A DNA stretch of 64,000 bases from Herbaspirillum sp. AP02 (GTDB lineage Bacteria; Pseudomonadota; Gammaproteobacteria; Burkholderiales; Burkholderiaceae_D), in assembly GCF_015767275.1 (NCBI RefSeq), contig NZ_JADWMY010000004.1:1-64000 (forward strand). Reading direction: 5' to 3'. A program made the translations under genes and the position numbers. Shown piece after piece: positions 31,604-50,003 of the stretch; the first letter of the stretch is position 1, and each line of letters opens with the position of its first letter. The notes beneath the pieces are model-generated. The model saw only the letters and a list, made by a program, of their open reading frames with translations, ran no database searches and was not told where the DNA came from.

Positions 31604-31763
31604 GGACTCGCTCCCAGCGGGGGTCAGGGGAATGAAACGGAGCTAACCAGTCCATGATACGGAGAAAGGTGAAAGCAAATCGTCCGATCTCTGAGACAAT
31701 AAAACCGCTTTTCCCTGCTTTGGCCCAGCCGGCACAACAAAATCATTGCGTGGAGGAATTCTC

Positions 31764-32636: not shown

Positions 32637-32646
32637 GGCCGTCACC

Positions 32647-32883
32647 ATGGAGACCTTCATCGGCCTGGTGCTGGGCCTGCTACGCCATCTGGCCTTCAAT
32701 GCCGTCTTCTACGCCATCGGCTGCGGCCTGCTCAAGCTGGTCACGCTGGGCCGCTACCCGCGCCTGATGCCGCTGCGCGGCGAACACTGGCGCCACCAGG
32801 TGCAGGACGTCGACCTGGTCACCCTGCTGGGCTTGCTGGCCACGGTAGCGCTGCTGATCCTGATGGCGCATTGGCTCGGCTGA
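32647..32883 (+). CDS. Small two-helix membrane protein
   Basis: A 78-residue hypothetical protein with two predicted membrane helices (about 5-30, FIGLVLGLLRHLAFNAVFYAIGC, and about 56-76, LVTLLGLLATVALLILMAHWL). They are separated by a basic loop, RYPRLMPLRGEHWRHQ. It begins 10 bases after the HDOD gene, so it is probably translated from the same message. The function is unknown. Confidence 0.7.
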   Translation: METFIGLVLGLLRHLAFNAVFYAIGCGLLKLVTLGRYPRLMPLRGEHWRHQVQDVDLVTLLGLLATVALLILMAHWLG

Positions 32884-32912
32884 CCCGCTTCGGGCGGCAG
32901 CCTGCAGCGACA

Positions 32913-33209
32913 TCAGGTCGCACAGATGCTGCAGCTATGTCCCTTGCAGTTGTGCAGCACGCTGCTGCGCCCCGCCCCGGCATGGGTACCGGGGCCGGTG
33001 GCCCCCTGACCGGCCAGTTGTTCGGCCCCGTTGCGCGGTTGCCAGCGCTGTTTGACCTGCAAGCCCACATGGCCGCCGGTGAGCATGGGTGCCGCCGCCG
33101 TCGCTTGCTTGCAATAGGGACAGCTGGTGTCGCCATGCAAGGCCTGCAGGGGAATCAGTCGTTCGAAGATGCCGTCGCAATGGCTGCAACGAATGTCGTA
33201 CAAGGGCAT
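32913..33209 (-). CDS. fmdB: FmdB family zinc-ribbon protein
   Basis: A 98-residue protein. The N-terminal zinc ribbon MPLYDIRCSHCDGIFE...SCPYCK has the paired CxxC motifs of the FmdB/CxxC_CxxC_SSSS family, first described as a regulator in the Methylophilus formamidase operon. A second small Cys/His group, HNCKGHSCSIC, sits at the C-terminus. Start ATG 33209 after AGGAGGGGAC. It is the last gene of the amide operon, 97 bases after fmdA. Its regulatory role here is inferred from the family. Confidence 0.88.
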   Translation of the reverse strand: MPLYDIRCSHCDGIFERLIPLQALHGDTSCPYCKQATAAAPMLTGGHVGLQVKQRWQPRNGAEQLAGQGATGPGTHAGAGRSSVLHNCKGHSCSICAT

Positions 33210-33306
33210 GTCCCCTCCTGAAGAATCCCGACCCGAAAAGACCCGACCGGAAAGACAACCGGCCGGGAACACACTACACACCACGCACAACAAACAAGCT
33301 CAGCCT

Positions 33307-34485
33307 TCAGCCCTTGCGCCCCCAATAGGACTTGTCGTTCAACATGCCCTTGGGCGTGATGTCCTGATCGAAGATCGAGGTCGGCAAGGCCACCGTGCAG
33401 GCGCAGTTGGGAATATCGACGATACCGCCGATGCGCCCTTCCACCGGTGCGGCCGTGAGCAGCATGTAGGCCTGGCTGCCGGTGTAGCCGAAGTGGGTCA
33501 GGTAGTCGATGGCCTTGAGGCAGGCCTGGCGATAGGCCACGGTGGCGTCGAGGTAGTAGTTCACGCCGTTTTCCACGCTGATGCCCTCGAAGGTCAGCCA
33601 CTGCTCGTAATGCGGCTTGACGATGCTGGGCATGAAGATGGGCGACGTGATGTTGTACTTCGCCATGCCGCCCTTGATGAGGTCGAAGCCGACGTGGCTC
33701 ACGCCATCCATCTCGATGGCGCCGCAGAAGCCGATCTCGCCATCGCCCTGCGAGAAGTGCAGGTCACCCATCGAGAAGCCCGCACCCTTCACATACACAG
33801 GGAAGAAGATGCGCGTACCGGCCGACAGGTCCTTGATATCGGTATTGCCGCCATGCTCGCGCGGCGGCACGGTGCGCGCGGCGACCTTGGCCATCTCGTC
33901 GAACTTGGCGCCGGTCAGGCCGCGCAGCACGGCGGTGCTCGGATCGGGCGGCTTGGCCAGGCCCTTGGCGGCCAGCGGCGCTTCGCGGCGGTTCCATTCG
34001 GCCAGCAACTCATGCGACGGCAGGCAACCCATCAGGCCCGGGTGGGTCAGGCCGGCGATGCGCACGCCCGGGATATGGCGCGAGGTGGCATACAGCCCCT
34101 TCAGGTCCCAGATGGCCTTGTCGGCCTCGGGGAAGTAATCGGCCAGGAAGCCGCCGCCATTTTCCTTGGAGAACACGCCCGAAAAACCGACCGGGGTCAC
34201 CGGCTTGATGTCCAGCAGGTCGATCACCAGCAGGTCGCCCGGTTCGGCGCCTTCGACGTGGAAGGGACCGGTCAGCGGGTGGGCGCGGGTCAGGTCGACA
34301 TTCTTGACGTCGGAGACGTCATCGGTGTCCTTGATCTGGGCATCCAGGAAGTCCAGTGATTCGATCAGGATGGATTCACCGGGCTTGACCGAGGCCAGGA
34401 AAGGCAGGTCCGGGTGCCAGCGGTTGTGGCCCAGTTCAGGCTGCTCTGCCAGCGGGACGCCGGGCTTGATCTTGAAGTGTTGCAT
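33307..34485 (-). CDS. fmdA: Formamidase FmdA
   Basis: A 392-residue acetamidase/formamidase family enzyme that hydrolyses formamide (and some short amides) to ammonia and the acid. Family phrases include HNRWHPDLP, GPFHVEGAEPGDLLVIDLLDI, GDLHFSQGDGEIGFCGAIEM and YGFTGSQAYMLLTAAPVEGRIGGIVD-like text near the end. The start is MQHFKIKPG at 34485, preceded by AAGGAGATCGC; in-frame sequence to 34584 has no such site. It is preceded by an unrelated amidase (AmiE type), so the operon encodes two non-homologous amide hydrolases. Confidence 0.93.
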   Translation of the reverse strand: MQHFKIKPGVPLAEQPELGHNRWHPDLPFLASVKPGESILIESLDFLDAQIKDTDDVSDVKNVDLTRAHPLTGPFHVEGAEPGDLLVIDLLDIKPVTPVGFSGVFSKENGGGFLADYFPEADKAIWDLKGLYATSRHIPGVRIAGLTHPGLMGCLPSHELLAEWNRREAPLAAKGLAKPPDPSTAVLRGLTGAKFDEMAKVAARTVPPREHGGNTDIKDLSAGTRIFFPVYVKGAGFSMGDLHFSQGDGEIGFCGAIEMDGVSHVGFDLIKGGMAKYNITSPIFMPSIVKPHYEQWLTFEGISVENGVNYYLDATVAYRQACLKAIDYLTHFGYTGSQAYMLLTAAPVEGRIGGIVDIPNCACTVALPTSIFDQDITPKGMLNDKSYWGRKG

Positions 34486-34544
34486 GCGATCTCCTTGGTG
34501 GTAGGTGCGTGATGAGCGTGAAGCATTGGCCAGCGAGGCAGTGC

Positions 34545-35576
34545 TCAGGGCGCCGGCTCGGTGGGAATCCCCGGCATCGGACATTCAGGCGTGCCGGCGC
34601 TGTTGCGGGTGAGCGCCTCGACCTGGGCGCGGGCGGCCTGCGGGTCATTGACCCAGGTGCGATAGAAATCGAAGGGACACTCGGCCACACCGGCCGGAGA
34701 TTCGCCCGAATTGATCTTGCCGGTATAGCCCCGGTGCAGCAGCTTGTAGAGATGGTTCTGGGATTGCCAGTTGCGCCGTGCATCGCGGATGGCGCCGATG
34801 GACAGCTCGGCATACTGGATGCCCATTTCCTCGGTGCCGCATTCGCCCAGCGTGCGGCCGTCGAAACCGACGATGGCCGAGTGGCCGAAGTAGGAATACA
34901 CGCCGTCGAAGCCGGCCGCATTGGCCACCGCCACATAGAGGTTGTTCATCCAGGCCATGGCCTTGGAGACCATGATCTGCTGTTCCTTGGCCGGGTACAT
35001 GTAACCCTGGCAACGCACCACCAGTTCCGCGCCCTTCATGGCGCAGTCACGCCAGATTTCGGGATAGTTGCCGTCGTCGCAGATGATCAGGCTCACCTTC
35101 AGGCCCTTGGGACCATCGCAGACATAGGTGGTGTCCCCCGGATACCAGCCCTCGATGGGCGTCCAGGGCATGATCTTGCGGTACTTCTGCACGATCTCGC
35201 CCTGGTCGTTGATGAGGATCAGGGTGTTGTAGGGGACCTTGCGCGGATGCTCTTCATGGCGTTCGCCGGTCAGCGAAAACACGCCCCACACACCGGCGAT
35301 GCGGCAGGCCTCCGCGAAGATGGCGGTCTCCTCGCCGGGGATGGTGGCGGCGGTCTCGAACATCTCCTCACGGTCGTACATGATGCCGTGGGTGGAATAC
35401 TCCGGGAACACCACCAGGTCCAGCCCCGGCAGGCCCTGCTTCATGCCCACCAGCATGGCGGCGATCTTCCTGGCGTTCTCCAGCACCTCGGCCCGCGTAT
35501 GCAGGCGCGGCATCTTGTAGTTGACTACCGCTACGCCGACGGCGTCCTTGCTGCTTGAAATGTCTCCGTGTCTCAT
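34545..35576 (-). CDS. amiE: Aliphatic amidase AmiE
   Basis: A 343-residue nitrilase-superfamily amidase hydrolysing short aliphatic amides. The catalytic triad sits exactly where expected: Glu59 (FPEYSTHG), Lys134 (YRKIMPW) and Cys166 ([12 protein letters not shown]). The opening MRHGDISSS and overall length are those of AmiE; the sister formamidase AmiF is close, so formamide or acetamide are the likely substrates. It lies between the ABC transporter genes and fmdA, so imported amide is cleaved in the cytoplasm to ammonia. Confidence 0.93.
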
Positions 35577-35618: not shown

Positions 35619-36308
35619 TCAGACCGACAGGTACTTGCTGATGGTGGGTGCATCGACATTGGCCCGCGTGTCTTCGTAGACGAAGCGCCCCTTGTCGATC
35701 ACCAGGAAACGGTCAGCAATCTCCAGCGTGAAGCTCAACACCTGCTCCGAGACCACGATGGTGAGGGCGCGGATCTTGCGGATTTCCTTCAGGCTCCGGG
35801 CGATGTCCTTGATGATGGAAGGCTGGATGCCCTCGGTCGGCTCATCCAGCAACAGCACCCGGGGATTGGTGGCCAGCGCCCGCGCAATGGCCAGTTGCTG
35901 CTGCTGGCCGCCGGAGAGGTTGCCGCCCTTGCGGGTGCGCATGTCGTAGAGCACGGGGAAGAGCGAATACAGCTCGTCCGGCACCTTGCCCCGGGCCGAA
36001 GCCGGCAAGCCGGTCTGGATGTTTTCCAGCACCGTCATGTGCGAAAAGATCATCCGCCCCTGCGGCACGTAGGCCACGCCGCGCTCCACGCGCTGGTGGC
36101 TTTCCAGGGCGCCCAATTCGACGCCATCGATGCTGATGCTGCCGCCGCGCAGCGGCAGGATGCCCATCAGGGTCTTGAACAGCGTGGTCTTGCCCATGCC
36201 GTTGCGGCCCATGACGGCGACGATTTCTTCCTTGGCCACCGACAGGTTGACGTCGTGGATGACCTTGCTCTGGCCGTAGCCGGAGGCGAGTTGCGAGACT
36301 TTGAACAT
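35619..36308 (-). CDS. urtE: Urea/amide ABC transporter ATP-binding protein UrtE-like
   Basis: A 229-residue LivF/UrtE-type ABC ATPase. Walker A is GRNGMGKTT, the signature LSGGQQQQLAIARAL, Walker B VLLLDEPTEGIQPS. The EGIQPSIIKDI stretch is typical of urea/amide (UrtE, FmdF) rather than amino-acid carriers. Start ATG 36308 after GGAGCCTGCC. It lies 25 bases after urtD and 42 before amiE. Confidence 0.92.
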   Translation of the reverse strand: MFKVSQLASGYGQSKVIHDVNLSVAKEEIVAVMGRNGMGKTTLFKTLMGILPLRGGSISIDGVELGALESHQRVERGVAYVPQGRMIFSHMTVLENIQTGLPASARGKVPDELYSLFPVLYDMRTRKGGNLSGGQQQQLAIARALATNPRVLLLDEPTEGIQPSIIKDIARSLKEIRKIRALTIVVSEQVLSFTLEIADRFLVIDKGRFVYEDTRANVDAPTISKYLSV

Positions 36309-36333
36309 GGCAGGCTCCGGGTTGGGTAGGCGT

Positions 36334-37101
36334 TCAGTGGCCGAGATAGACATCGATCACCTTGGGATCGGATTGCACCTTCTCCATGCTGCCCTCGGCC
36401 AGGATCTTGCCCTGGTGCAGCACGGTCACCTTGTGGGCGATGCTCTTGACGAAATCCATGTCGTGCTCGATCACCACCACCGAGCGACCCTGGCTGATGC
36501 GGCCCAGCAGTTCGGCGGTCTTTTCGCGCTCGGACACGCTCATGCCGGCCACCGGCTCGTCCAGCATCAGCAGTTCGGGCTCCTGCATCAGCAGCATGCC
36601 GATCTCCAGCCACTGCTTCTGCCCGTGCGAGAGCAGGTCGGCCTGGGTGTGCAACTGCTGGTCGAGGAAGATATCGGCGGCCACCGCCTCCACCCGTGCC
36701 ACCACGTCCGGCGAGCGCTGGAAGGTCAGCGCACCGAACACCTTGCGGCCACGCGGGAAGGACATTTCCAGGTTCTCGAAGACGGAAAGGTTTTCGTAGA
36801 TGGACGGCGTCTGGAACTTGCGCCCCACCCCTGCCCGCACGATGGCGTGCTCGCTCATCCTGGTCAGCTCATGGCTGTTGAACTTGATGCTGCCGGAGGT
36901 GGCGCGGGTCTTGCCGCAGATCAGGTCCAGTACGGTGGTCTTGCCGGCACCGTTGGGGCCGATCACCACGCGCACCTCGTTGCGCTGCACGTAGAGATTG
37001 AGGCCGTCCACCGCCTTGAAACCGTCGAAGGACACGGTCAGCTCTTCGATGGCCAGGACCGGATGGGCATCCGATTCGAAACCGATGGGGTTCTCGCTCA
37101 T
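36334..37101 (-). CDS. urtD: Urea/amide ABC transporter ATP-binding protein UrtD-like
   Basis: A 255-residue LivG/UrtD-type ABC ATPase. Walker A is GPNGAGKTT. The signature is the degenerate LSHGQKQWLEIGMLLMQ, which is diagnostic of UrtD. Walker B is LLMLDEPVAGMS. The phrase VGRKFQTPSIYENLSVFENLE is also UrtD-like. Its ATG overlaps the urtC stop as ATGA. It pairs with UrtE to power the UrtBC permease. Confidence 0.93.
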   Translation of the reverse strand: MSENPIGFESDAHPVLAIEELTVSFDGFKAVDGLNLYVQRNEVRVVIGPNGAGKTTVLDLICGKTRATSGSIKFNSHELTRMSEHAIVRAGVGRKFQTPSIYENLSVFENLEMSFPRGRKVFGALTFQRSPDVVARVEAVAADIFLDQQLHTQADLLSHGQKQWLEIGMLLMQEPELLMLDEPVAGMSVSEREKTAELLGRISQGRSVVVIEHDMDFVKSIAHKVTVLHQGKILAEGSMEKVQSDPKVIDVYLGH

Positions 37102-38318
37102 TTGCTGGCCTCCAGGGTAGCGCCGGGCTCGATGCCGTCGCGCTTGGGTTCAGGGGTGGATGGACGGGCCGCTGCGGCAGCAGCTGGTACAACAGTTGGC
37201 GCAACCACGACCGCCGCCGGCTTGACCTCACCACGCAGCCGCGCCATCAGCCGCTTGCCCTGGGTCTGCCAGAGACCGGCCAAGCCATTGGGGAAGTACA
37301 TCACCACCGCGATGAAGAGGCCGCCCATCAGGAACAGCCACAGCTCGGGGAAGGTCTCGGAAAAATAGGTCTTGCCGAAGTTCACCAGCAACGTGCCGTA
37401 CACCGCGCCCAGCAGCGACATGCGACCACCGACGGCGGCATAGATCACCATCTCGATGGACGGCACGATGCCCACGAAGGAGGGCGACATGAAGCCCACC
37501 TGCAGCGTGAACATGGCCCCGCCGATGGCCGAGAACATGGCCGCCGCGCAGAACACGAAGACCTTGAAGCTGGCCACGTCATAGCCCGAGAAGCGCACGC
37601 GCTCCTCCTTGTCGCGCATGGCCACCAGCAGGCGCCCCAGCTTGGAGCCGAGCACATAGCGGCCGAACAGGATGCAAGCGAACAGCAGGCCCGCATTGAC
37701 GAAGTACAGCACCAGCTTGGCATGGTCGGTGCGGATGTCCCAACCCATCAGGGTCTTCAGGTCGGTGATGCCGTTGACGCCGCCGGTCAGGCCCTGCTGG
37801 CCGATGATCAGGATGGACAGGATGGCGGCGATGGCCTGCGTGACGATGGAGAAATACACATCCCCCACCCGGCGCTTGAACATGGCCAGCCCGATCAGCA
37901 TGGCCAGCAGGGTGGGCACCACCAGCACTGCCAGCACCGTGAAGCCGAAGCTATGGAAGGGCTCCCACATGGCCGGCAAGGCGGTGATCTGGTTCCAGTC
38001 CATGAAGTCGGGAATCCCCGGCGTGGACTGGATCTTGGTGCTGATGGGGTCGGAGGCTTCGAGCTTGAGGAACATGGCCATGCAATATCCGCCCAGGCCG
38101 AAGAACACCCCCTGTCCCAGGCTGAGGATGCCGCCATAGCCCCAGCACAGCACCAGGCCCACCGCCACGAAGGCGTAGGACAGGTACTTGCCCACCAGGT
38201 TGAGACGGAACATGTCCAGCGTCAGCGGAAACACCAGCAGCAACAGCACCGCCATCACCAGCAGGCCCACCGCCCCGGAGCGCCCGCCCAACAGTTTTTC
38301 ATAGGCTGCATGCATCAT
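37098..38318 (-). CDS. urtC: Urea/amide ABC transporter permease UrtC-like
   Basis: A 406-residue LivM/UrtC-type permease with about ten membrane helices. Family phrases are LVLCWGYGGILSLGQGVFFGLGGYCMAMF, GGVNGITDLKTLMGW and FSAIGGAMFTLQVGFMSPSFVGIVPSIEMVIYAAVGGR. The final ~45 residues are a Pro/Ala/Val-rich, likely unstructured cytoplasmic tail not needed for transport. I start at ATG 38318 (GAGGTCCG before it); a GTG 12 bases upstream is also in frame. Confidence 0.92.
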   Translation of the reverse strand: MMHAAYEKLLGGRSGAVGLLVMAVLLLLVFPLTLDMFRLNLVGKYLSYAFVAVGLVLCWGYGGILSLGQGVFFGLGGYCMAMFLKLEASDPISTKIQSTPGIPDFMDWNQITALPAMWEPFHSFGFTVLAVLVVPTLLAMLIGLAMFKRRVGDVYFSIVTQAIAAILSILIIGQQGLTGGVNGITDLKTLMGWDIRTDHAKLVLYFVNAGLLFACILFGRYVLGSKLGRLLVAMRDKEERVRFSGYDVASFKVFVFCAAAMFSAIGGAMFTLQVGFMSPSFVGIVPSIEMVIYAAVGGRMSLLGAVYGTLLVNFGKTYFSETFPELWLFLMGGLFIAVVMYFPNGLAGLWQTQGKRLMARLRGEVKPAAVVVAPTVVPAAAAAARPSTPEPKRDGIEPGATLEASK

Positions 38319-38358
38319 CGGACCTCGCACGGGTTGTTGGAGAAAGAGAAGCCGGCCA

Positions 38359-39276
38359 TCACTTGCGCACCTTGGCCGAGAACAGGCCCTGCGGACGCAG
38401 CATCAGGATCAGGATCACTGCCGACAGCGTGAGCACCTTGGCCATGGAACCGGTCAGGAAGAACTCCGCCGTGGACTGCGTCTGCGCAATCGAGAAGGCC
38501 GAGGCGATGGTGCCGATCAGGCTTTGCGCGCCGCCGAAGACCACCACCAGGAAGGTATCGACGATGTAGAGCGAACCGCTGGTGGGACCGGTGGAACCGA
38601 TGGTGGTGAAGGCCGCCCCGGCCACCCCGGCCACGCCGCAACCGAGCGCGAAGGTGGTGCGATCGACCTTGCGGGTATTGATGCCCACCGCCCCGCTCAT
38701 GACCCGGTTCTGCATCGTGGCGCGCACCTGCAGGCCCCAGCGCGAGCGGAACAGCAGCACGAAGATGGAGCCCGTCAGCAGCGCCGTGATGCCCATCATG
38801 AACAGGCCATTGATGGGAATGTCGATGGCATCGGTCGGCTTGAAGGACCCCATCAACCAGTCCGGCAAGGTGGCGCTGACTTCCTTGGCACCGAAGATGG
38901 AACGGAAGGTCTGCTGCATCGCCAGCGACAGGCCCCAGGTGGCCAGGAGCGTATCGAGCGGGCGCTTGTAGAGGCGGCTGATCAGCAGCAGCTCGGTCAG
39001 GTAGCCCACGCCATAGGCCACCGCGAAGGACAGCACGATGGCCACGAAGAAATAGAACGGCTGAAAGGCCGGCGCATAGGTGGTGGTCAGGTGCGAGAGC
39101 AGATAGGTGATGTAGGCGCCGATGGTGAGGAATTCACCGTGGGCCATGTTGATCACGCCCATCTGCCCGAAGATGATGGCCAGGCCCAGCGCCATGAGCA
39201 GCAGGACGCAGAACACCGAGAGGCCATTGAAGCCCTGCATGGCGAAGATGGCGCCGAATTCGGATAGAGAAACCAT
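38359..39276 (-). CDS. urtB: Urea/amide ABC transporter permease UrtB-like
   Basis: A 305-residue LivH/UrtB-type permease with about eight membrane helices. Landmarks: MQGFNGLSVFCVLLLMALGLAIIFGQMGVINMAHGEFLTIGAY, LLATWGLSLAMQQTFRSIFG, RATMQNRVMSGAVGINTRKVDRTTF and DTFLVVVFGGAQSLIGTI. Forms the translocation pore with UrtC. It follows urtA after 106 bases; 40 bases separate it from urtC. Confidence 0.93.
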   Translation of the reverse strand: MVSLSEFGAIFAMQGFNGLSVFCVLLLMALGLAIIFGQMGVINMAHGEFLTIGAYITYLLSHLTTTYAPAFQPFYFFVAIVLSFAVAYGVGYLTELLLISRLYKRPLDTLLATWGLSLAMQQTFRSIFGAKEVSATLPDWLMGSFKPTDAIDIPINGLFMMGITALLTGSIFVLLFRSRWGLQVRATMQNRVMSGAVGINTRKVDRTTFALGCGVAGVAGAAFTTIGSTGPTSGSLYIVDTFLVVVFGGAQSLIGTIASAFSIAQTQSTAEFFLTGSMAKVLTLSAVILILMLRPQGLFSAKVRK

Positions 39277-39382: not shown

Positions 39383-40639
39383 TTACTGGTAACCCTTGGG
39401 GAAGGGATTCGGTTCGATCAGATCGGACTCGTAGACCACCTTGAACTGGCCATCCTTCTGGGCTTCGCCGATGCGGGTCTTGCTCCACAGGTGATGGTTC
39501 TCGTGGACCTTGACGTAGCCTTCCGGGGCGGTCTTGAGTTCGATGCCGGGGGAGGCCGCCACCACCTTGTCGACGTCGAAGCTGCCGGCCTTTTCCACCG
39601 CCGCCTTCCACAACCAGGGACCGAGATAGGCGGCCTGGGTGACGTCGCCGATGACCGAATTGGCACCGAACTTGGCCTTGAACTCGGCCACGAATTTCTT
39701 GTTGTTGGCGTTGTCCAGGCTCTGGAAATACTTCATGGAAGCAAAGAAGCCCTCCACGTTCTCGCCGCCGATGCCCAGCATTTCATCTTCGGTGACCGAG
39801 ATGGTCAGCAGGTTCTGGGTCTTGGCGGTGACGCCGGCCGCCTTCAGCTGCTTGTAGAAGGCGACGTTGGAGCCGCCCACCACGTCGGCGAAGATGACGT
39901 CCGGTTTCTTGAGCTTGATCTTGTTGATCAGCGAGCCGAACTGGGTATTGCCCAGCGGATAGTATTCCTCGCCCACCACCGAGCCCTTGAGCACGTTCTC
40001 GATGTGCTTGCGGGCGATCTTGTTGGAAGTGCGCGGCCAGATGTAGTCCGAGCCGACCAGGAAGAAGGTCTTGGCCTTCTTTTCCTTGGCCACCCAGTTC
40101 AGGCCTGCCAGCACCTGTTGCGTCGCCTCCTGCCCGGTATAGAAGACGTTCTTGGACTGCTCCAGGCCTTCGTAGAAGGTCGGGTAGTAGAGCAGGCCGT
40201 TATCCTTCTCGAACACCGGCAGCACCGCCTTGCGCGAGGCCGAGGTCCAGCAGCCGAAGACGGCCGCCACGCGGTCGTTCTCCAGCAGCTTCTTGGCCTT
40301 TTCGGCGAAGGTCGGCCAGTCGCTGGCGCCGTCTTCCTGGATGATCTTGATCTTGCGACCGAGGATGCCGCCCATGGCATTGATCTGGTCGATGGCCAGG
40401 CGCTCGGCCTGGATCGACCCGGTCTCGCTGATGGCCATGGTGCCGGTGGCCGAGTGCAGCTGGCCCACGGTGACTTCGGTATCGGTGATGGCCAGCTTGG
40501 TGGTATTGACCTTGGCGGTCGGATACTGCTGGGCCGAGGCCATGCCCGGCAGGGCAGCAGCGGCGGCACCAGCGGCCAGGCCCATGAGGACCTTGCGGCG
40601 CGGCAGCGAGGGCGGGTTGGAAGACGAGGAATGCGACAT
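39383..40639 (-). CDS. urtA: Urea/amide ABC transporter substrate-binding protein UrtA-like
   Basis: A 418-residue periplasmic binding protein. The twin-arginine-like N-terminus (PRRKVLMGLAAGAAAAALPGMASA, Arg14-Arg15, cleavage near residue 36) suggests Tat export. The mature part is the UrtA/FmdC type: VGQLHSATGTMAISETGSIQAERLAIDQINAMGGILG, FGCWTSASRKAVLPVFE, LLYYPTFYEGLEQSKNVFYTG. Urea and short amides are the family's ligands. The two amidases downstream favour an amide. First gene of the operon, behind a dyad-controlled promoter. Confidence 0.93.
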   Translation of the reverse strand: MSHSSSSNPPSLPRRKVLMGLAAGAAAAALPGMASAQQYPTAKVNTTKLAITDTEVTVGQLHSATGTMAISETGSIQAERLAIDQINAMGGILGRKIKIIQEDGASDWPTFAEKAKKLLENDRVAAVFGCWTSASRKAVLPVFEKDNGLLYYPTFYEGLEQSKNVFYTGQEATQQVLAGLNWVAKEKKAKTFFLVGSDYIWPRTSNKIARKHIENVLKGSVVGEEYYPLGNTQFGSLINKIKLKKPDVIFADVVGGSNVAFYKQLKAAGVTAKTQNLLTISVTEDEMLGIGGENVEGFFASMKYFQSLDNANNKKFVAEFKAKFGANSVIGDVTQAAYLGPWLWKAAVEKAGSFDVDKVVAASPGIELKTAPEGYVKVHENHHLWSKTRIGEAQKDGQFKVVYESDLIEPNPFPKGYQ

Positions 40640-40849: not shown

Positions 40850-40895
40850 AGAATAGGATCGGCGGTGCGGCGCAACAATACGTTGTTTGACGTAA
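40850..40895 (-). promoter_or_regulatory. urtA promoter with upstream activator dyad
   Basis: Plus-strand 40878-40895 reads ATACGTTGTTTGACGTAA, an imperfect dyad. On the minus strand it overlaps by one base a -35 TTGTTG (40873-40878), then a 17-bp spacer and a -10 TATTCT (40850-40855). The dyad centre would lie about 43 bases upstream of transcription start, the usual place of a class II activator. Confidence 0.55.
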
Positions 40896-41050: not shown

Positions 41051-41096
41051 ATACGTCATTTGACGTATGCCCGTGCTGCGCGAATGGTTTGAAAAT
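41051..41096 (+). promoter_or_regulatory. Permease-kinase gene promoter with activator dyad
   Basis: ATACGTCATTTGACGTAT (41051-41068) has perfect 8-bp arms around TT and matches the urtA-side dyad at 15 of 18 positions. It abuts a very poor -35 (TGCCCG, 41068-41073), then 17 bp, then GAAAAT (41091-41096). Geometry is the same as at urtA. The weak -35 suggests that activation depends on a bound regulator, most simply the LuxR-type protein encoded downstream. Confidence 0.5.
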
Positions 41097-41181
41097 TGCT
41101 TGCACATGAACGCGAGCGGTCCTGCCAGCCGGCGTGCTGACAAGGACCTGACGAGATGCCCCGACCTTACCCAGAGCCAAC

Positions 41182-44100
41182 GTGACCCATCCCGCCACAC
41201 AACGCATCGTCAAGGTCCGCCGCGACTACAACACCTGGGTCGCCAACGAGACCCTGGAAGATTACGCGCTGCGCTACACGCCGCTGTCGTTTCGCCGCTG
41301 GTCCGAATTCCGGCTGGCCAACACGGCCCTGGGCGCGACCTCCTTCCTGGCCCTGGAAGCCATCAGCGGCGCCATCACCCTGAGCTACGGCTTTACCAAT
41401 GCCTTCTGGGCCATCGTCTGCGTGGTGGTGCTGTTCTTCCTGACCGGCCTGCCGATCAGCTACTACGCTGCCCGCTACGGGGTGGACATGGACCTGCTCA
41501 CGCGCGGCGCCGGCTTCGGCTACATCGGCTCGACCATCACCTCGCTGATCTATGCCAGCTTCACCTTCATCTTCTTCGCGCTGGAAGCGGCCATCATGGC
41601 CCAGGCCATCGAGATCTACTTCGGCCTGCCACTGGTGTATGGCTACGTGCTCTGTTCGCTGATCATCATCCCCATGGTGGCCTACGGCATCACCCTCATC
41701 AACCGCCTGCAGATGTGGACCCAGCCGCTGTGGCTGGTGCTGCTGGTACTGCCCTACCTGTGCGTGCTGTACAAGGAGCCCGACGCCCTGCGCAACCTGA
41801 TGAGCTTTGCCGGCCGTGCCGAGGAAGGCAGCTCCTTCAACCTGCTGCTGTTCGGCGCGGCCGCGACGGTGGCCTTTTCGCTGATCGCCCAGATCGGCGA
41901 GCAGGTCGACTTCCTGCGCTTCCTGCCGGAGAAGACCGCCGCCAATCGCGGCCGCTGGTGGAGCGCCCTGCTGCTGGCCGGCCCCGGCTGGATTCTGCTG
42001 GGCGGCGCCAAGATGCTGGGCGGCGCGCTGCTGGCCTTCCTGGCCATCCAGCACGAGGTGCCGATGGCGCGCGCCGTGGAACCGACCCAGATGTACCTGA
42101 TCGGTTACCAGTACGTGTTCGGCAATCCGGCCCTGGCGCTGGGGGCGGTGGTGCTGTTCGTGGTGGTGTCGCAGATCAAGATCAATGTCACCAATGCCTA
42201 TGCCGGTTCGCTGGCCTGGTCCAATTTCTTTGCGCGCCTGACCCACAGTCACCCCGGCCGCGTGGTGTGGCTGGTGTTCAATGTCCTGATCGCAGTGCTG
42301 CTGATGGAGCTGGGCGTCTTCAATGCCCTGGAACACGTGCTGGCGCTCTACAGCCTGGTGGCGATCTCCTGGATCGGCGCGGTGGTGGCCGATCTGGTGA
42401 TCAACAAGCCGCTGCGCCTGAGCCCGGCGCATATCGAGTTCAAGCGCGCCCATCTGTATGACGTCAACCCGGTCGGCGTGGGCTCGATGGTGATCGCCAC
42501 CCTGCTCTCCACGCTGGCCATGTCCGGCGTGCTGGGCAAGACGGTGGCAGCACTCTCCCCCTTCATCGCCCTGGGGACAGCCCTGGTGAGCGCGCCGTTG
42601 ATCGCGGTGGCCACCGGCAGCCGCTACTACATCGCCCGCCGCGATACGCTGTCCGAACAGAGCTACCGCCCCTATACGCCCGGCCACAGCCCCTCGGTGC
42701 TGGACTGCGTCATCTGCGGCAATGCCTTCGAAACCCCGGACATGGCGCACTGCCCGGCCTACCAGGGCGCCATCTGCTCGCTGTGCTGTTCGCTCGATGC
42801 ACGTTGCAAGGACCGCTGCAAGACCCCGCGCGCGCGGCTGCCCAACCAGATCCTGCACACCCTGCGCCAGTTGATCCCGGCGCGCTTCGCGCTCAAGCTC
42901 AATACCCGTATCGGTCATTACCTGAGCGTCTTCGGTCTCTTGGCCGGTGGCCTGGCCATCGTGCTGTGGATGCTGTACTTCCAGCAGATGGCCGACCTCT
43001 CCGGCCTCACCCTGGCCGCGCCCGACTCGCTGCGGGGCGTCTTCATCAAGCTGTTCTGTCTGTTGCTGGTGGTGGTCGGCGTGGGCGCATGGTGGCTGGT
43101 GCTGACCAATGAAAGCCGCGCCGTCGCGCAGGAAGAATCGGAACGCCAGACCAACCTGCTGCTGCAGGAAATCGAGGCCCACAAGCAGACCGACGCCGAA
43201 CTGCAGCGCGCCAAGGAGGCCGCCGAATCGGCCAACCTGGCCAAGAGCCGCTTCGTGGCCGGCATGAGCCATGAACTGCGCACACCCTTGAACAGCATCC
43301 TCGGCTATGCGCAGATCCTGCACGTGGACGCCACCATTCCGCCGGCCCGCAAGGAAGCCATCGCCATCATCCGCCGCAGCGGCGAACACCTGCTGAGCCT
43401 GATCGACGGCCTGCTCGACATCGCCAAGATCGAAGCCGGCAAGATGCGCCTGGCCTCCGACGAACTGGCGCTGGAAGCCTTCCTGGAACAGATCGTGGGC
43501 ATGTTCGCGCCGCAGGCAGAACAGAAGGGCCTGCAGTTCCGCTTCGAAAAAACCGGCCGCCTGCCGCACATCGTGCATGCCGACCAGAAGCGGCTGCGGC
43601 AGATCCTCATCAACCTGCTGGGCAATGCCGTCAAGTTCACCGACCGTGGCGGGGTCACCCTGAAGGTGCGCTACGCGCGCGAGATTGCCTGGTTCGACGT
43701 GGTCGACACCGGCATCGGCATCGCCGACGACGACCTGGAACGCATCTTCCTGCCCTTCGAACGCAGCAACGCGGCCAGCCTGCGCGAGGACATCGGCACC
43801 GGGCTGGGGCTGGCCATCAGCCGCATGCTGGTCCACATCATGGGCGGTGAGCTGAGCGTGCAGAGCACGGTCGGCGCCGGCAGCAGCTTCCACCTCAAGC
43901 TCTACCTGCCGGAGGTGCATGTGCCGCGCCCCAGACTACAACTGGAAGACCAGATGTCCGGCTACGCCGGCCCCTCGCGCCACATCCTGGTGGTGGACGA
44001 CCAGGCCTCGCAGCGCCGCCTCCTGAAGGACATGCTGGCCCCGCTGGGCTTTGCGGTCAGCGAGGCCGACAGCGGCCTGGCCTGCATGGAAAGACTGGCG

Positions 44101-44637
44101 CACGAGGTGCCGGACCTGATCCTGCTCGACATCGCCATGCCGCAGATGGACGGCTGGAGCGTGGCCCGCGCCATCCGCGCGCGGGGTCTGACGCAGTTGC
44201 CCATCCTGCTGGTCTCGGCCAATGCCTTCGAGAACCTGCACGAGCGCAACGGCGCGCCGCTGGTCAACGATTTCCTGGTCAAGCCGGTGTCGTACAACGA
44301 GCTGCTGGGCAAGATCAGGCAGCACCTGCAACTGGACTGGGTGGCGCCGGGCACAAGCGCCTCGGCGCCCGCTGCCACACCGCCCACCGCCACCACCATC
44401 ACGGCCAAGCCGCTGATGCTGGTGCCGGGCCAGGACAGGCTGGCCGCCCTGCTGCAACTGGGCAGCATCGGCTATGCCAAGGAAATTCTGCGCCAGCTGG
44501 ACGCCATGGACCGCCAGAACCCGGCCTACCTGCCCTTCACCACGGAGCTGCGGCAACTGGTCAGGCAATTCCGACTCAATGAATATGTCACCCGCATCAA
44601 GGAGCTGATCCGCCATGATCTCAACGACGTTCGATAG
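41182..44637 (+). CDS. NCS1 permease-like / histidine kinase / receiver fusion (sensor)
   Basis: A 1151-residue hybrid. Residues ~25-490 form an NCS1-type (cytosine/purine/hydantoin) transporter domain with about 12 helices (TPLSFRRWSEFRLANTALGATSFLALE, TRGAGFGYIGSTITSLIYASFTF, INVTNAYAGSLAWSNFF). Residues 509-546 hold eight cysteines in the pattern CxxC-x11-C-x7-CxxCC-x5-C-x3-C, likely a metal or Fe-S site. Two more helices follow (~578-600 and 620-642) and a coiled coil. The kinase has His697 in GMSHELRTP and N/G boxes NLLGNAVKF, DTGIGIADDD and GTGLGL. A receiver has Asp983. The C-terminal ~90 residues are of unknown type. The start is GTG 41182. The context suggests sensing of an amide or related nitrogen compound by the transporter domain. 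Confidence 0.85.
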   Translation: MTHPATQRIVKVRRDYNTWVANETLEDYALRYTPLSFRRWSEFRLANTALGATSFLALEAISGAITLSYGFTNAFWAIVCVVVLFFLTGLPISYYAARYGVDMDLLTRGAGFGYIGSTITSLIYASFTFIFFALEAAIMAQAIEIYFGLPLVYGYVLCSLIIIPMVAYGITLINRLQMWTQPLWLVLLVLPYLCVLYKEPDALRNLMSFAGRAEEGSSFNLLLFGAAATVAFSLIAQIGEQVDFLRFLPEKTAANRGRWWSALLLAGPGWILLGGAKMLGGALLAFLAIQHEVPMARAVEPTQMYLIGYQYVFGNPALALGAVVLFVVVSQIKINVTNAYAGSLAWSNFFARLTHSHPGRVVWLVFNVLIAVLLMELGVFNALEHVLALYSLVAISWIGAVVADLVINKPLRLSPAHIEFKRAHLYDVNPVGVGSMVIATLLSTLAMSGVLGKTVAALSPFIALGTALVSAPLIAVATGSRYYIARRDTLSEQSYRPYTPGHSPSVLDCVICGNAFETPDMAHCPAYQGAICSLCCSLDARCKDRCKTPRARLPNQILHTLRQLIPARFALKLNTRIGHYLSVFGLLAGGLAIVLWMLYFQQMADLSGLTLAAPDSLRGVFIKLFCLLLVVVGVGAWWLVLTNESRAVAQEESERQTNLLLQEIEAHKQTDAELQRAKEAAESANLAKSRFVAGMSHELRTPLNSILGYAQILHVDATIPPARKEAIAIIRRSGEHLLSLIDGLLDIAKIEAGKMRLASDELALEAFLEQIVGMFAPQAEQKGLQFRFEKTGRLPHIVHADQKRLRQILINLLGNAVKFTDRGGVTLKVRYAREIAWFDVVDTGIGIADDDLERIFLPFERSNAASLREDIGTGLGLAISRMLVHIMGGELSVQSTVGAGSSFHLKLYLPEVHVPRPRLQLEDQMSGYAGPSRHILVVDDQASQRRLLKDMLAPLGFAVSEADSGLACMERLAHEVPDLILLDIAMPQMDGWSVARAIRARGLTQLPILLVSANAFENLHERNGAPLVNDFLVKPVSYNELLGKIRQHLQLDWVAPGTSASAPAATPPTATTITAKPLMLVPGQDRLAALLQLGSIGYAKEILRQLDAMDRQNPAYLPFTTELRQLVRQFRLNEYVTRIKELIRHDLNDVR

Positions 44638-45598
44638 GCAAGTCGTGCTGATCGTCGATGACATGCCCGACAACCTGGCCATGTTGTCCGACGCCCTCGA
44701 CGAGAGCGGCCACATCGTGCTGGTCGCCACAGACGGTCTCTCGGCGCTGCAGCGGCTGGACCACATCACGCCCGACCTGATCCTGCTGGACGCCATGATG
44801 CCCGGCATCGATGGCTTCGAGACCTGCCGCCGCATCAAGCAGTTGCGGCAGGTGAGTCACGTGCCGGTAGTCTTCATGACCGGCCTGTCGGAGACCGAGC
44901 ACGTGGTGCGCGGCTTCGAGGTCGGCGGCATCGACTACGTCACCAAGCCGATCCGTCCGCAGGAAGTGGTGGCCCGCATCGGCGCCCACATCCGCACCGG
45001 GCGCATGATGTCGCAGGCACGTGGGGTCCTGGAACAGGCCGCGCACGCGGTGATCGTCCTGGGCGGTAATGGCTTGCCGACCTGGCAGACCAGCAAGGCC
45101 TCGCAATGGCTGGAGAAGTATTTCGGCGCCCCCGCACCGGGCAGCCAGCGGCTGCCGGCGGCACTGCAGGTGTGGCTGAACGAACAACTGGTGCGCCAGC
45201 GCCAGGGCGAGAACCTGGACCAGTTGCCCCCGCTGGTGGTACGCCTGGACCAGGGCGAACTGCACATCACCCTGTGCGGCCCCGGCCAGGGGCATGGTGC
45301 CAGCCTGCTGCTGGAAGAAAAGACCGGCGCCGCCGCGCTGGCACGGCCGGAGGACGGCCCGGCGCTACCGGCCTCGCTGGAAGCCTGCCGGCTCACCCCG
45401 CGCGAGAGCGACGTCCTGCTGTGGCTGGGCAAGGGCAAGACCAACCGCGACATTGCCGACATCCTCGGCATGAGCCCGCGCACGGTGAACAAGCATCTGG
45501 AACATATCTTCGTGAAACTGGGCGTGGAAACGCGCTCGGCGGCGGCGGTGCTGGCCAGTAGCGTGGCGGCGGGAAGTGGGGGGCAGTTGCTGCAATGA
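44615..45598 (+). CDS. LuxR family response regulator
   Basis: A 327-residue regulator. The receiver (about 1-130) has IVDDMPDN, phospho-acceptor Asp59 (LILLDAMMPGIDGF) and Lys in YVTKPIRP. A middle ~120-residue segment, which includes QAAHAVIVLGGNGLPTW, resembles a PAS-like or linker domain and is longer than in NarL-type regulators. The LuxR HTH starts at residue 260: LTPRESDVLLWLGKGKTNRDIADILGMSPRTVNKHLEHIFVKL. It overlaps the kinase gene by 23 bases, so the two are a cognate pair. The duplicated dyad upstream of the cluster is its probable target. Confidence 0.9.
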   Translation: MISTTFDRQVVLIVDDMPDNLAMLSDALDESGHIVLVATDGLSALQRLDHITPDLILLDAMMPGIDGFETCRRIKQLRQVSHVPVVFMTGLSETEHVVRGFEVGGIDYVTKPIRPQEVVARIGAHIRTGRMMSQARGVLEQAAHAVIVLGGNGLPTWQTSKASQWLEKYFGAPAPGSQRLPAALQVWLNEQLVRQRQGENLDQLPPLVVRLDQGELHITLCGPGQGHGASLLLEEKTGAAALARPEDGPALPASLEACRLTPRESDVLLWLGKGKTNRDIADILGMSPRTVNKHLEHIFVKLGVETRSAAAVLASSVAAGSGGQLLQ

Positions 45599-45958: not shown

Positions 45959-47447
<1,489 letters not shown>

Positions 47448-47455
<8 letters not shown>

Positions 47456-48458
47456 GTCGGCTCCATGTATCCAGGGCTTGTTGCAGGCGCTCCCAGCCGG
47501 CTTCGTCAGGCGGCAGGCCAAGGCGGATGCCACCGGCGCCACGGGTGAAGAGGCGTATCCAGATGCCCTCTTGCGCCATGGCCTGGTGAAACGCCACGGC
47601 CTGCGGTTCGGGCCACCACTGGAACAGCGCCGTGCCATGGGCGGCGATGCCGTGGGTGGCCAGCAGGGCCTGCAGGCGTTCGCCCGCGGCCAGCAGTTGC
47701 TGCAGAGTGACCTGCTGCCACTTCCGGTCGCCGAGGGCCGCGCAGCCGATCTGCTGGGCCGGGCCGCTGATGGCCCAGGGTCCCAGCCAGTCGGCCAGCG
47801 CATCCAATAACGGCGGCGCGGCGGCGACGAAGCCCAGCCGCAGGCCGGCCAGGCCGAAGAACTTGCCCACTGAGCGCAATACGATCAGGCCGGCATCGGC
47901 CGTGTGGGCGGCCACGCTCTGCCCGGATAACGTATCGCCGAAGGCTTCGTCCACCACCAGCCAGCCACCGCGTGCGGCCAGTTGCGCGGCCCATTGCATG
48001 AGCTGGCCCGGGGCCACCCGCGCACCGGTGGGATTGTTGGGATTGCAGAGCACCAGCACGTCGCAGGCGCCACCTTGCACTGCTTCCTCCAGCGCGGTGT
48101 AAGGGACTTCGCGTACCGCATGGCCGGCACGCTGCCAGCAGTGCGCATGTTCGGCGTAGATGGGCGCGGCCACCACCACCTGGGCCGGACGTCCATCCTG
48201 CCGCAGGCGCAGTTGCGGCAGGGCCTGGATGGCGGCCTGGGTGCCGGCCACGGCCAGCATGCGGGGCGCACCGTAGTAGGTGCAGGCGGCCTGCTCCAGC
48301 GCCGGCGAGGCTTCGGGCAGGCGATGCCAGGCGTCGGCGGCGATGGCGGGCGCCGGATAGGGCCGCGGATTGATGCCGGTGGACAGGTCCAGCCATTGGC
48401 TGCGGGGGCGGCCGTAGTGGCGCGCCGCGTCGTTGAGGTTGCCGCCGTGTTCAAGCAT
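47448..48458 (-). CDS. cobD: Threonine-phosphate decarboxylase
   Basis: A 336-residue PLP-dependent aminotransferase-fold enzyme. It makes (R)-1-aminopropan-2-ol phosphate, the linker of the cobalamin lower ligand. The opening [28 protein letters not shown] is diagnostic. Also visible are [17 protein letters not shown] and the PLP-lysine in [17 protein letters not shown]. The gene is called cobC in the Pseudomonas denitrificans naming. It overlaps cbiB (8 bases) and cobQ. Confidence 0.94.
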
Positions 48459-49398
48459 GCAGGCCTCCCAGGCAGAGCAGCGCCACGGCGCTGATGACGG
48501 CCAGCCACAGGGCGGTGCTCATGGCCACCAGTCGCCAGGCGCGCACGATGTCCGGTCCTTGCGGCAAGGGGCCGCGCCCCAGTGGCGGGCGCTGTTCCAG
48601 TTCGCCGTCATAGATCGCTGGTCCGCCCAGGGCCAGGCCCAGGGCGCCGGCACCGGAGGCCATCACCGGCCCGGCATTGGGGCTGCTCCAGGTCGGGGCC
48701 TGTTCCTTCCAGCAGGCCATGGCCTGGCGCCGCTGGCCCAGCCAGGCGTAGGACAAGGCGGTCAGGCGCGCCGGCAGCCAGTTCAGCGCATCGTCGATGC
48801 GCGCCGCGGCCCAGCCGAAGTGCAGGAAGCGCGCCGTGCGGTAGCCCCACATCGCATCCAGGGTATTGGCCAGACGGAACAGCAAGGCCCCGGGGCCGCC
48901 GGCCACCAGGAACCAGAACAGCGTGCCGAAGACGGCGTCGTTGCCATTCTCCAGCAGCGATTCGACGCCGGCCTTGGCCAGGTCCTGCTCGCTGGATTGA
49001 CGCGTGTCGCGACTGACGATGTAGGAGGTCAGGCGGCGCGCCAGCGGCAGGTCGCCACTCGCCAGTGCCTGGGCGATGGGCAGGGTATGTTCGCGCAGGC
49101 TGCGCAGGCCGATGCAGAAGTACAGCAGCGCCGCATGCAGCAAGGCGGCCAGCCACCAGGGCGCGGCCGCCAGCAGACACGCGGCCACCAACACCGGCGG
49201 CAGCACCGCCAGGCTCCAGGCCAGCACGCCGCGCAGGCGCAATGCCGGTCGCTGGTTGAGCACGCGCTCGATGGTCTTGGCCAGGTTGCCGAAACCGACC
49301 AGCGGATGCCAGCGGCGCGCCTCGCCCAGAGCCAGGTCCAGCGCCACGCCGAGCGCCATCAACACGGCCAGCCAGGGCCAGGACAGGCCGCTCAGCAT
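48451..49398 (-). CDS. cbiB: Adenosylcobinamide-phosphate synthase
   Basis: A 315-residue integral membrane protein with five or so helices that joins aminopropanol phosphate to adenosylcobyric acid. Family phrases are [81 protein letters not shown] and [18 protein letters not shown]. Start ATG 49398 after AAGGACAGCGC, overlapping the cobU stop by 7 bases. (Also named cobD in some schemes.). Confidence 0.94.
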
Positions 49399-50003
49399 GC
49401 GCTGTCCTTCAGGTTCAGGGGCAGCCCGGCGGCGACCCATTGCACCCGTTCGCAGAGGGCGGCCACGGCCTGGTTCAGACGGCCGGCCTCGTCCACGAAC
49501 CAGCGCGAGATGGCGCCCTGCGGGATGATGCCCATGCCCACTTCATTGGAGACGATGATCACCGGCCCGGCGGCCTCCTGCAAGGCGCGCAGGAAATCCA
49601 CCCGCTGCAGCGTGAATGCCGCTGGCGGGTCGATCGGCCCCAGTTCAGGAAATGCGATGCCGTCGGCAAACAGCAGGTTGGCCAGCCACACGGTCAGGCA
49701 ATCGACCAGCACCACGCGATCGGGGCGGCTGTGATCGCGCAGGGCCTGGCCCAGGGCCAGCGGTTCTTCCACCGTGCGCCATGGGCCACCCAGGGCCAGG
49801 CGGCGTTGCTGGTGGTGGTCGATGCGGGCCCGCATCTCGGCATCGTCACTGCTGGCGCGACGGCTGGCGGTGGCGAGATAGACGATCTCGCTGGCGCCGG
49901 CCTGCCAGGCGGCCAGTGCCAGTTTCTCGGCATGCGCGCTCTTGCCGGAGCGGGCGCCACCGAATACCAGGGTGCGCTGCGGTGGGCGGGAAGCGGGCTT
50001 CAT
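49392..50003 (-). CDS. cobU: Adenosylcobinamide kinase/guanylyltransferase
   Basis: A 203-residue bifunctional enzyme of nucleotide-loop assembly (CobU/CobP). The P-loop is [13 protein letters not shown] near the N-terminus. [14 protein letters not shown] and the conserved [13 protein letters not shown]...[15 protein letters not shown] identify the family. Start ATG 50003, which overlaps the bluB stop as ATGA. Confidence 0.95.

Follow-up and report, generated by a model that had tools for sequence, protein, structure and literature searches.

Bacterial sensor kinases with a transporter-like N-terminal domain include CbrA, CrbS/MxtR and RpuS (PMC9100948; statements on cited papers, given by PubMed Central number, refer to the parts of each paper covered here). 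CbrA has been termed a rare transceptor, and whether the signal is perceived by its transporter or by the cytoplasmic PAS domain is described as unsettled (PMC13022988, preprint). In Ks-Amt5 a transporter domain has been repurposed as an ammonium sensor, and transport was lost (PMC5764959). Here we describe a gene of Herbaspirillum sp. AP02 whose product fuses a different type of permease to a hybrid histidine kinase. The gene lies within positions 1 to 64,000 of contig NZ_JADWMY010000004.1 (assembly GCF_015767275.1, forward strand), a stretch of 64,000 nucleotides called the window below. The protein is probably a transceptor-type sensor kinase for short amides that acts on its own locus via a LuxR-type regulator. 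Among the PMC papers listed in our searches we recognised none describing the sensor protein, its locus or its regulation; subscription papers were outside this scope.

Permease, cysteine module and hybrid kinase in one frame

The sensor gene is an uninterrupted frame with a GTG start that encodes 1151 amino acids, as seen from the open-frame list and the translation. Searched with the full-length protein, Pfam (E 0.01) recognises HisKA (residues 687-753), HATPase_c (801-909) and Response_reg (935-1045) only, with the phospho-accepting histidine and aspartate of a hybrid kinase; neither a PAS domain nor another known sensor domain is found in this search. Conservation was followed in 83 complete sensors, namely the protein of the window plus closed frames of more than 1050 residues from loci L009-L130, with kinase-free and kinase-swapped forms excluded. 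His697, Asp983 and Lys1034 are present in all 83. Permease and kinase are one gene in the complete sensors, and kinase-free permeases are additional, separate genes. The first-pass annotation of this DNA had proposed this order of parts in a single frame, and had named split orthologues or unconserved cysteine and kinase motifs as observations that would speak against it; Pfam, the predicted model and the alignment bear it out. Strict sequence patterns for the receiver (39 of 83) and the kinase box (61 of 83) were discarded, as the alignment has Asp983 and His697 in every sensor and the patterns are at fault.

The predicted model places two extra helices (residues 576-606 and 614-697) before the kinase, the second of which continues as a coil. 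For residues 497-683 the sole Pfam match is DUF4131 at E 0.051, in a database for which the existence of a STAC model was not confirmed. A C-terminal HPt relay was rejected, since no alignment column from residue 1050 on has a histidine in more than 30 of the 83 sensors. The tail (residues 1053-1140), C-terminal to the receiver, is itself conserved, with Trp1053 and Gly1097 invariant in 83 of 83. A frame of 917 residues on the opposite strand (41167-43920) overlaps the sensor gene and is taken for a shadow frame, presumably owing to high GC content. The locus holds both the fused receiver and a separate response regulator, and the phospho-accepting aspartate is present in each of the 102 response regulators extracted from 152 sensor copies.

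Judged by profile comparison and predicted fold, the membrane domain is NCS1-like, below the level of Pfam detection. Pfam gives no match for residues 1-503 even at E 10, and none of the 57 members of the family alignment matches its NCS1 model Transp_cyt_pur (PF02133) at E 0.01. When profiles are compared (hhalign), the family nevertheless aligns with an NCS1 set from 38 loci retrieved via PF02133 (without L187 and L199, the latter scoring below the cut-off of that model) at 99.7%, E 5e-26, over 426 columns. The control comparison with SLC5 proteins (14 loci) gives 3%, and an SLC5 origin was rejected on this basis. The AlphaFold2 model of residues 1-698 (57 rows, mean pLDDT 84.1, pTM 0.84) matches CodB (7qoa; Z 34.2, 394 aligned, 3.2 A) and Mhp1 (4d1a; Z 29.5, 428 aligned, 4.1 A); the best match outside NCS1 is AgcS, whose Z of 26.1 is level with that of the lowest-scoring Mhp1 entry (26.7). 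A PDB profile search with the first 10 alignment rows left the permease unmatched and returned only RING scraps for the cysteine part (E 1.9 and worse), and was not counted. The assignment to NCS1 in the first-pass annotation, and its view that the build differs from CbrA, are upheld by these comparisons and by the PAS-free Pfam result.

The permease is followed by a module of eight cysteines with the exact pattern C509-xx-C512-x11-C524-x7-C532-xx-C535-C536-x5-C542-x3-C546. All eight are kept in the 83 complete sensors; the search patterns for named genomes were drawn from the permease, and this conservation is thus not built in. Among 398 Pseudomonadota genomes a profile of the module has 58 matches, 57 within the sensor family and one in a weak 41-residue frame. 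Modelled in isolation (49 rows, pLDDT 77.5, pTM 0.54) the module consists of two short hairpins and a helix with weak matches to RING/FYVE zinc fingers (best Foldseek E 0.5; FYVE 2yw8 at Z 3.2, 41 residues, 2.1 A; nothing reaches Z 5). Searching with only the module returned fragments of zinc fingers (whole-sequence E 0.002 at best, no single stretch passing), which were not counted. The cluster had been proposed as a metal or redox input. A redox input is not supported, as pattern and model lean weakly towards a zinc finger and the tail also occurs on kinase-free permeases; the cysteines are more likely structural sites for a metal, presumably zinc. It is highly improbable that the cluster is the primary metal or redox sensor and the permease just its anchor: the invariance of the cysteines and the near-confinement of the module to this family would agree with such a role, but the recurrent neighbours are amide and urea genes (metal and redox genes were not searched for), and two of the kinase-free permeases that end in the module lack four of the eight cysteines.

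The kinase-free forms also bear on the origin of the module. One is encoded on a Methylovirgula plasmid (L012) between a regulator and an aliphatic amidase gene and has all eight cysteines; one in Acinetobacter ursingii (L013) has four and lies directly before urease genes; one in L017, opposite a sensor, likewise has four. The L017 record (NZ_CP064203.1) is filed as a plasmid yet has the size of a chromosome, 3.97 Mb. The two four-cysteine forms retain C509, C512, C532 and C535. The division into two groups (509/512/532/535 and 524/536/542/546) rests on these two sequences, mutually 90% identical, and gives a lead, namely one older zinc site plus a second one added in the sensors. In a quick tree rooted with NCS1 proteins L013 and L017 split first, L012 next, then all sensors shown, a basal order that hangs on very long outgroup branches. 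The tail is seemingly a feature of the permease, since kinase-free relatives that carry it branch off outside the sensors, and the tree suggests that the permease with its tail came first and the kinase was gained later. The four-cysteine protein of Acinetobacter ursingii (L013:7950-9557) is, by its sequence and position, a candidate urea permease.

Amide and urea genes beside the sensor

Divergent from the sensor gene, the window encodes a UrtABCDE-like ABC system of the amide type followed by an amidase and a formamidase (Table 1). The UrtA of the window is 41% identical to the other UrtA of the same genome, a protein encoded some 6 kb away from a match to urease alpha; NCBIfam labels the window protein, too, as a urea protein. 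Urt-like genes beside formamidase and amidase genes have been argued to carry other amides (PMC3098086). Pseudomonas veronii Yu15, with an amiE-fmdA-fmdB-urtABCDE cluster, grows on formamide and acetamide (PMC13209695), and the fmd genes of Methylophilus are induced by formamide and urea (PMC10781810). Since the UrtA of the window is of the amide type and is followed by amiE and fmdA, formamide or acetamide is a likelier ligand here than urea. An FmdB-type gene, which many relatives have beside fmdA, was not recognised among the frames scanned at 31700-33300, nor was it found in L131 of the same family. Past the amide genes a DUF3141 protein is encoded (29093-31603, minus strand), and the cobalamin genes cobQ, cobD and cbiB lie beyond the other end of the locus (45959-49440, minus strand).

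Table 1. Coordinates of the sensor gene, its parts and the surrounding locus in the window
Feature	Position	Strand	Basis
Hybrid sensor kinase (NCS1-like permease, cysteine module, two helices, kinase, receiver)	41182..44637	+	frame, Pfam, model, alignment
NCS1-like 12-helix permease, about residues 27-483	41260..42630	+	profile comparison, predicted fold
Eight-cysteine module, residues 509-546	42706..42819	+	translation, alignment, model
Two extra helices and coil into kinase, about residues 576-696	42907..43269	+	predicted model
HisKA (His697) and HATPase_c	43240..43908	+	Pfam; His697 in 83/83 aligned sensors
Receiver domain (Asp983, Lys1034)	43984..44316	+	Pfam; 83/83 aligned sensors
Response regulator, receiver and LuxR/GerE helix-turn-helix; 23-bp overlap with sensor gene	44615..45598	+	Pfam, frame list
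Perfect 18-bp palindrome ATACGTCATTTGACGTAT, putative operator, sensor side	41051..41068		motif scan
Second palindrome copy, 3 mismatches, urtA side	40878..40895		motif scan
Amide-type UrtA binding protein	39383..40639	-	family matches, UrtA comparison
UrtB-like permease	38359..39276	-	family matches
UrtC-like permease	37098..38330	-	family matches
UrtD-like ATPase	36334..37101	-	family matches
UrtE-like ATPase	35619..36353	-	family matches
Aliphatic amidase AmiE	34545..35576	-	710 bits, cut-off 427
Formamidase FmdA, long start, family match from residue 37	33307..34584	-	557 bits, cut-off 500

The linkage recurs across the family. At E 1e-10 the sensor family is matched in 54 of the 398 Pseudomonadota genomes, at least two of which (G194, G236) hold fragments only. 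From this phylum sample 60 stretches were fetched and 56 copies typed after four were dropped (L187, a 27% NCS1 relative, and the fragments L188-L190): 37 are of the amide type, 9 are linked to urease, 8 to canonical urt genes, and 2 (L141, L186, both cut by contig ends) lack a searched gene. Amide or urea genes lie within the fetched 9 kb in each of the 52 copies that have 8 kb or more of upstream sequence; in 54 of the 56 copies the sensor gene is followed by one for a related response regulator. A scan of named genomes confirmed at least 589 relatives, of which the best 80 were kept; in this set amide or urea genes are near 72 of 82 copies, or 57 of 62 with 8 kb upstream. Hand-picked plasmid loci have them in 11 of 13 cases. 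The sets overlap in part (e.g. L025 and L137, on contigs of equal length, 371,884), and the counts from the named set and the phylum sample are not independent. All 38 genomes with an amide-type UrtA (E 1e-120 or better) also hold the sensor, as compared to 54 of 398 overall (hypergeometric p 1e-40, with genomes treated as independent though they are related). The architecture and the gene linkage are solid, and because most relatives adjoin genes for formamide, acetamide or urea, the sensor probably switches such genes on. Of the amide, urea or hydantoin type of ligand suggested earlier, the neighbours argue for the first two, narrowed here to formamide or acetamide; no link to hydantoins or nucleobases is seen in the annotated neighbourhoods of sensors and kinase-free relatives viewed, although no systematic search was made.

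The family is also found on plasmids: tblastn with residues 1-606 matches 534 plasmid records, 342 of them from Klebsiella, and 521 cover at least 80% of the query. For example, a Klebsiella pneumoniae plasmid (L014, 2897-13252) carries a urt-amiF locus that includes the sensor pair, with a UrtA 75% identical to the amide-type UrtA of the window and 41% to the canonical one. This Klebsiella version of the sensor (L014:8989-12369) is matched at 99% or more in 6 of 5426 complete E. coli genomes; in 4 of them the match spans 80% or more of the sensor, and plasmids hold 6 of the 7 places. The UrtABC/AmiF set of lineage CG307 has been treated as a urea transporter (PMC13060141, preprint) and, if it is the same locus, may carry other amides.

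The main tree comprises 83 rows, namely 79 family members (134 before removal of near-copies) and four NCS1 proteins. Most urease-linked rows form one clade of 15 (100/100) with 7 urease-linked rows, 3 canonical urt rows, 4 without a searched gene and 1 labelled amide type by rule (L064_10001), in fact a sensor of the urease clade with an amide-type locus nearby. Outside this clade fall two urease-linked rows (L013, L182), and two clades of three canonical urt rows each (100/100) are nested in the other large clade of 30 rows. Such switches between amide and urea partners in separate clades would be anticipated for ligands of similar chemistry. The amide and urea groups, assigned manually on the tree, differ cleanly at several positions, among them 141, 231, 368 and 378 of the permease and 516 of the cysteine module, which gives leads to specificity.

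It is possible, though less probable than sensing by binding, that the protein is a true transceptor in which the permease also transports the amide or urea and in which, as has been discussed for CbrA, signalling follows from transport and not simply from binding. Consistent with this, the kinase-free relatives stand before urease genes, near an amidase gene and opposite a sensor, and Glu135, Glu240, Asp243 and Lys333 are invariant in all 83 sensors and in all rows of a 10-row alignment, two of them kinase-free. Most copies, on the other hand, adjoin an ABC uptake system, so that uptake by the sensor could be redundant, and Ks-Amt5 lost transport on becoming a sensor (PMC5764959).

A palindrome upstream and the proposed circuit

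The palindrome ATACGTCAnnTGACGTAT sits between urtA and the sensor gene and recurs elsewhere before urtA, fmdA and amiE. For a stretch such as the window 0.03 copies are expected against the two observed, a number equalled in 1 of 100 shuffles. Genome-wide, no exact match exists besides the perfect copy, and 2 of the 4 places at up to 3 mismatches fall in the urtA-sensor intergenic region; a reversed-pattern control gave 3 places, and the total number of palindromes is not raised. The 152 sensor copies yielded 144 upstream regions, or 132 once near-copies were removed. Among the amide-type regions the palindrome occurs at up to 3 mismatches in 60 of 83 (0 of 415 shuffles), a descriptive count as the consensus was derived from the same regions, and at up to 4 mismatches in 68 of 83 (4 of 415 shuffles). 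Of six unassigned regions one, L017, has it at up to 4 mismatches (0 of 30 shuffles). When 90 amide-type loci were scanned whole (1.71 Mb), 98 sites at up to 3 mismatches were found: 74 between urtA and the sensor gene, 17 before fmdA, 2 before amiE, one each before fmdB, urtC, urtA and a sensor alone, and 1 elsewhere. Hence 97 of the 98 immediately precede a gene of the amide locus or a sensor, in zones that together account for 13.4% of the scanned sequence; the sites at fmdA and amiE played no part in motif discovery. Distances to fmdA are understated because the FmdA start in the window is long. Of four additional urt stretches examined, one (L270), 11 kb from its sensor, has a 3-mismatch site about 1.3 kb before fmdA.

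The recognition helix of the 102 regulators changes in step with the motif, being mostly RTVNKHLE in the amide type and xTVKKHLE in the urease type. We consider it unlikely that the palindrome serves another regulator and that the sensor pair acts elsewhere. The canonical-urt regulators would fit such a view, as they share the amide-type helix although their regions mostly lack the palindrome, a departure from the link between helix and motif. The parallel change of helix and motif in the two main types argues against it, as do the sole exact match in the sensor's own intergenic region and two urtA copies without adjacent sensor (L268, L269; 75% and 57% identical), around which 8-10 kb contain no site below 6 mismatches.

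Other promoter elements were also considered. An NtrC-like motif, TGCAC-N7-GTGCA, was rejected, as it occurs in 1 of 83 amide-type regions and in none of the 25 of the urease type. Of the latter, 14 (e.g. L076, L156) have a sigma-54-like element, GGCA-N6-TTGC, directed at the partner operon, and 18 of 83 amide-type regions have one directed at the sensor. In the window a weak -24/-12-like GG-N10-GC spacing is seen by eye between the palindrome and the sensor start (41086-41099).

From these parts the following circuit can be proposed. A small amide, here most likely formamide or acetamide and urea in the urease-linked relatives, would bind at the substrate site of the NCS1-like domain, and the resulting conformational change would be relayed via the cysteine module, which we place in the cytoplasm and which probably holds zinc, and via helices 13-14 to the kinase. 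His697 would be phosphorylated and the phosphate passed to the LuxR-type regulator whose gene overlaps that of the sensor; the fused receiver would serve as an intermediate or a regulatory site. The regulator would then bind the palindrome between urtA and the sensor gene and turn on the divergent operon for amide uptake, amidase and formamidase, and probably its own genes too. A branched relay, as suggested earlier, is conceivable, with the fused receiver and the separate regulator both present. Given the Ks-Amt5 precedent, and with the trigger of CbrA unsettled, binding in the NCS1-like site is favoured as the signal.

Several observations weigh against this circuit. The palindrome is weak or missing in 15 of 83 amide-type regions; it is found at 4 mismatches, and none lower, in only 3 of 25 urease-type regions (0 of 125 shuffles), and at up to 4 mismatches in 3 of 18 canonical-urt regions (0 of 90 shuffles). 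An amide-type urt/fmdA locus whose sensor is on another contig (L271) has no site below 6 mismatches in 9 kb. Five of the 62 named copies (L070, L071, L085, L086, L087), with neighbours viewed as open frames only, have no searched amide or urea genes nearby, and neither has L017 of the plasmid set, apart from its paralogous permease. Finally, the SLC5 domain of CbrA is reported as non-essential for signal perception (PMC9100948).

The last point, and sigma-54-like elements in some regions that hint at an added general nitrogen control, would agree with a dispensable permease and a kinase that reads a cytoplasmic signal such as nitrogen status or internal amide, as argued for CbrA. Such a reading is improbable here: Pfam finds no PAS domain, and two cyanobacterial contigs as well as two genomes from another class keep the permease-cysteine part with a different kinase. 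In the cyanobacterial contigs the permease is 66-68% identical to that of the window, whereas the kinase is different (26% or no match); in one of this set (L040) the next gene encodes a receiver and, by eye only, a part resembling MarR. In L181 and L184 the kinase is merely 25-27% identical, yet the locus adjoins fmdA, so that the linkage outlasts replacement of the kinase. Conservation of the permease-cysteine part across different kinases suggests that selection acts on the input part.

Comparison with known systems

The sensor is conserved and common rather than strange; it is a variant of the transporter-kinase fusions represented by CbrA and Ks-Amt5, and its circuit is testable. As the family has no detectable PAS domain, a candidate operator and kinase-free relatives, the question of transporter versus PAS raised for CbrA can be addressed directly. 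In many bacteria associated with soil or plants the sensor is a candidate for the regulator that underlies induction by formamide and urea, and it is one for some plasmid-borne 'urea transport' loci as well. A wider reading, which we put forward tentatively and hold to be somewhat short of probable, is that of a third class of transporter-kinase transceptors: an NCS1-like transporter would have gained a zinc-type tail, then a second four-cysteine site, then a kinase, and would since have been transferred, as a sensor head, to clearly different kinases and between regulons for amides and for urea. Bacteria would thereby have the membrane sensor for formamide and urea that has been missing so far, in about 1/7 of the sampled Pseudomonadota genomes.

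On the side of amide metabolism, Methylophilus fmdCABDEF and the amide-type urt clusters combine the same kind of uptake and formamidase genes; in the parts of PMC10781810 covered, FmdB alone is named as a putative positive regulator and a sensor like this one is unmentioned. AmiC/AmiR likewise regulates an aliphatic amidase via an amide ligand, but consists of a ligand-binding negative regulator and an antiterminator, and is reported to be absent from the P. veronii amiE-fmdA-urt cluster (PMC13209695). Mhp1 and CodB share the fold and a weak sequence profile with the membrane domain, which differs from them in lying below Pfam detection, in its fusion to a kinase and in being linked to amides and urea instead of nucleobases or hydantoins. 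Ks-Amt5 likewise wires the fold of a nitrogen-compound transporter to a kinase, which in Ks-Amt5 has no PAS, HAMP or STAC domain; it differs in being an Amt trimer with a kinase part of 269 residues, the response regulator of which was not identified there, and a cysteine module or receiver is not mentioned in the parts of the paper covered (PMC5764959). The transporter-like domains of CbrA, CrbS/MxtR and RpuS belong to the same broad fold class as the sensor domain, and CrbS and RpuS are, like the sensor, hybrids with a LuxR-family regulator that control the use of small nutrients (PMC9100948). Their substrates differ from those proposed here. The CbrA type has an SLC5 domain of 13 helices, STAC and PAS; the sensor has an NCS1-like domain of 12 helices, an eight-cysteine module, two more helices and no detectable PAS domain.

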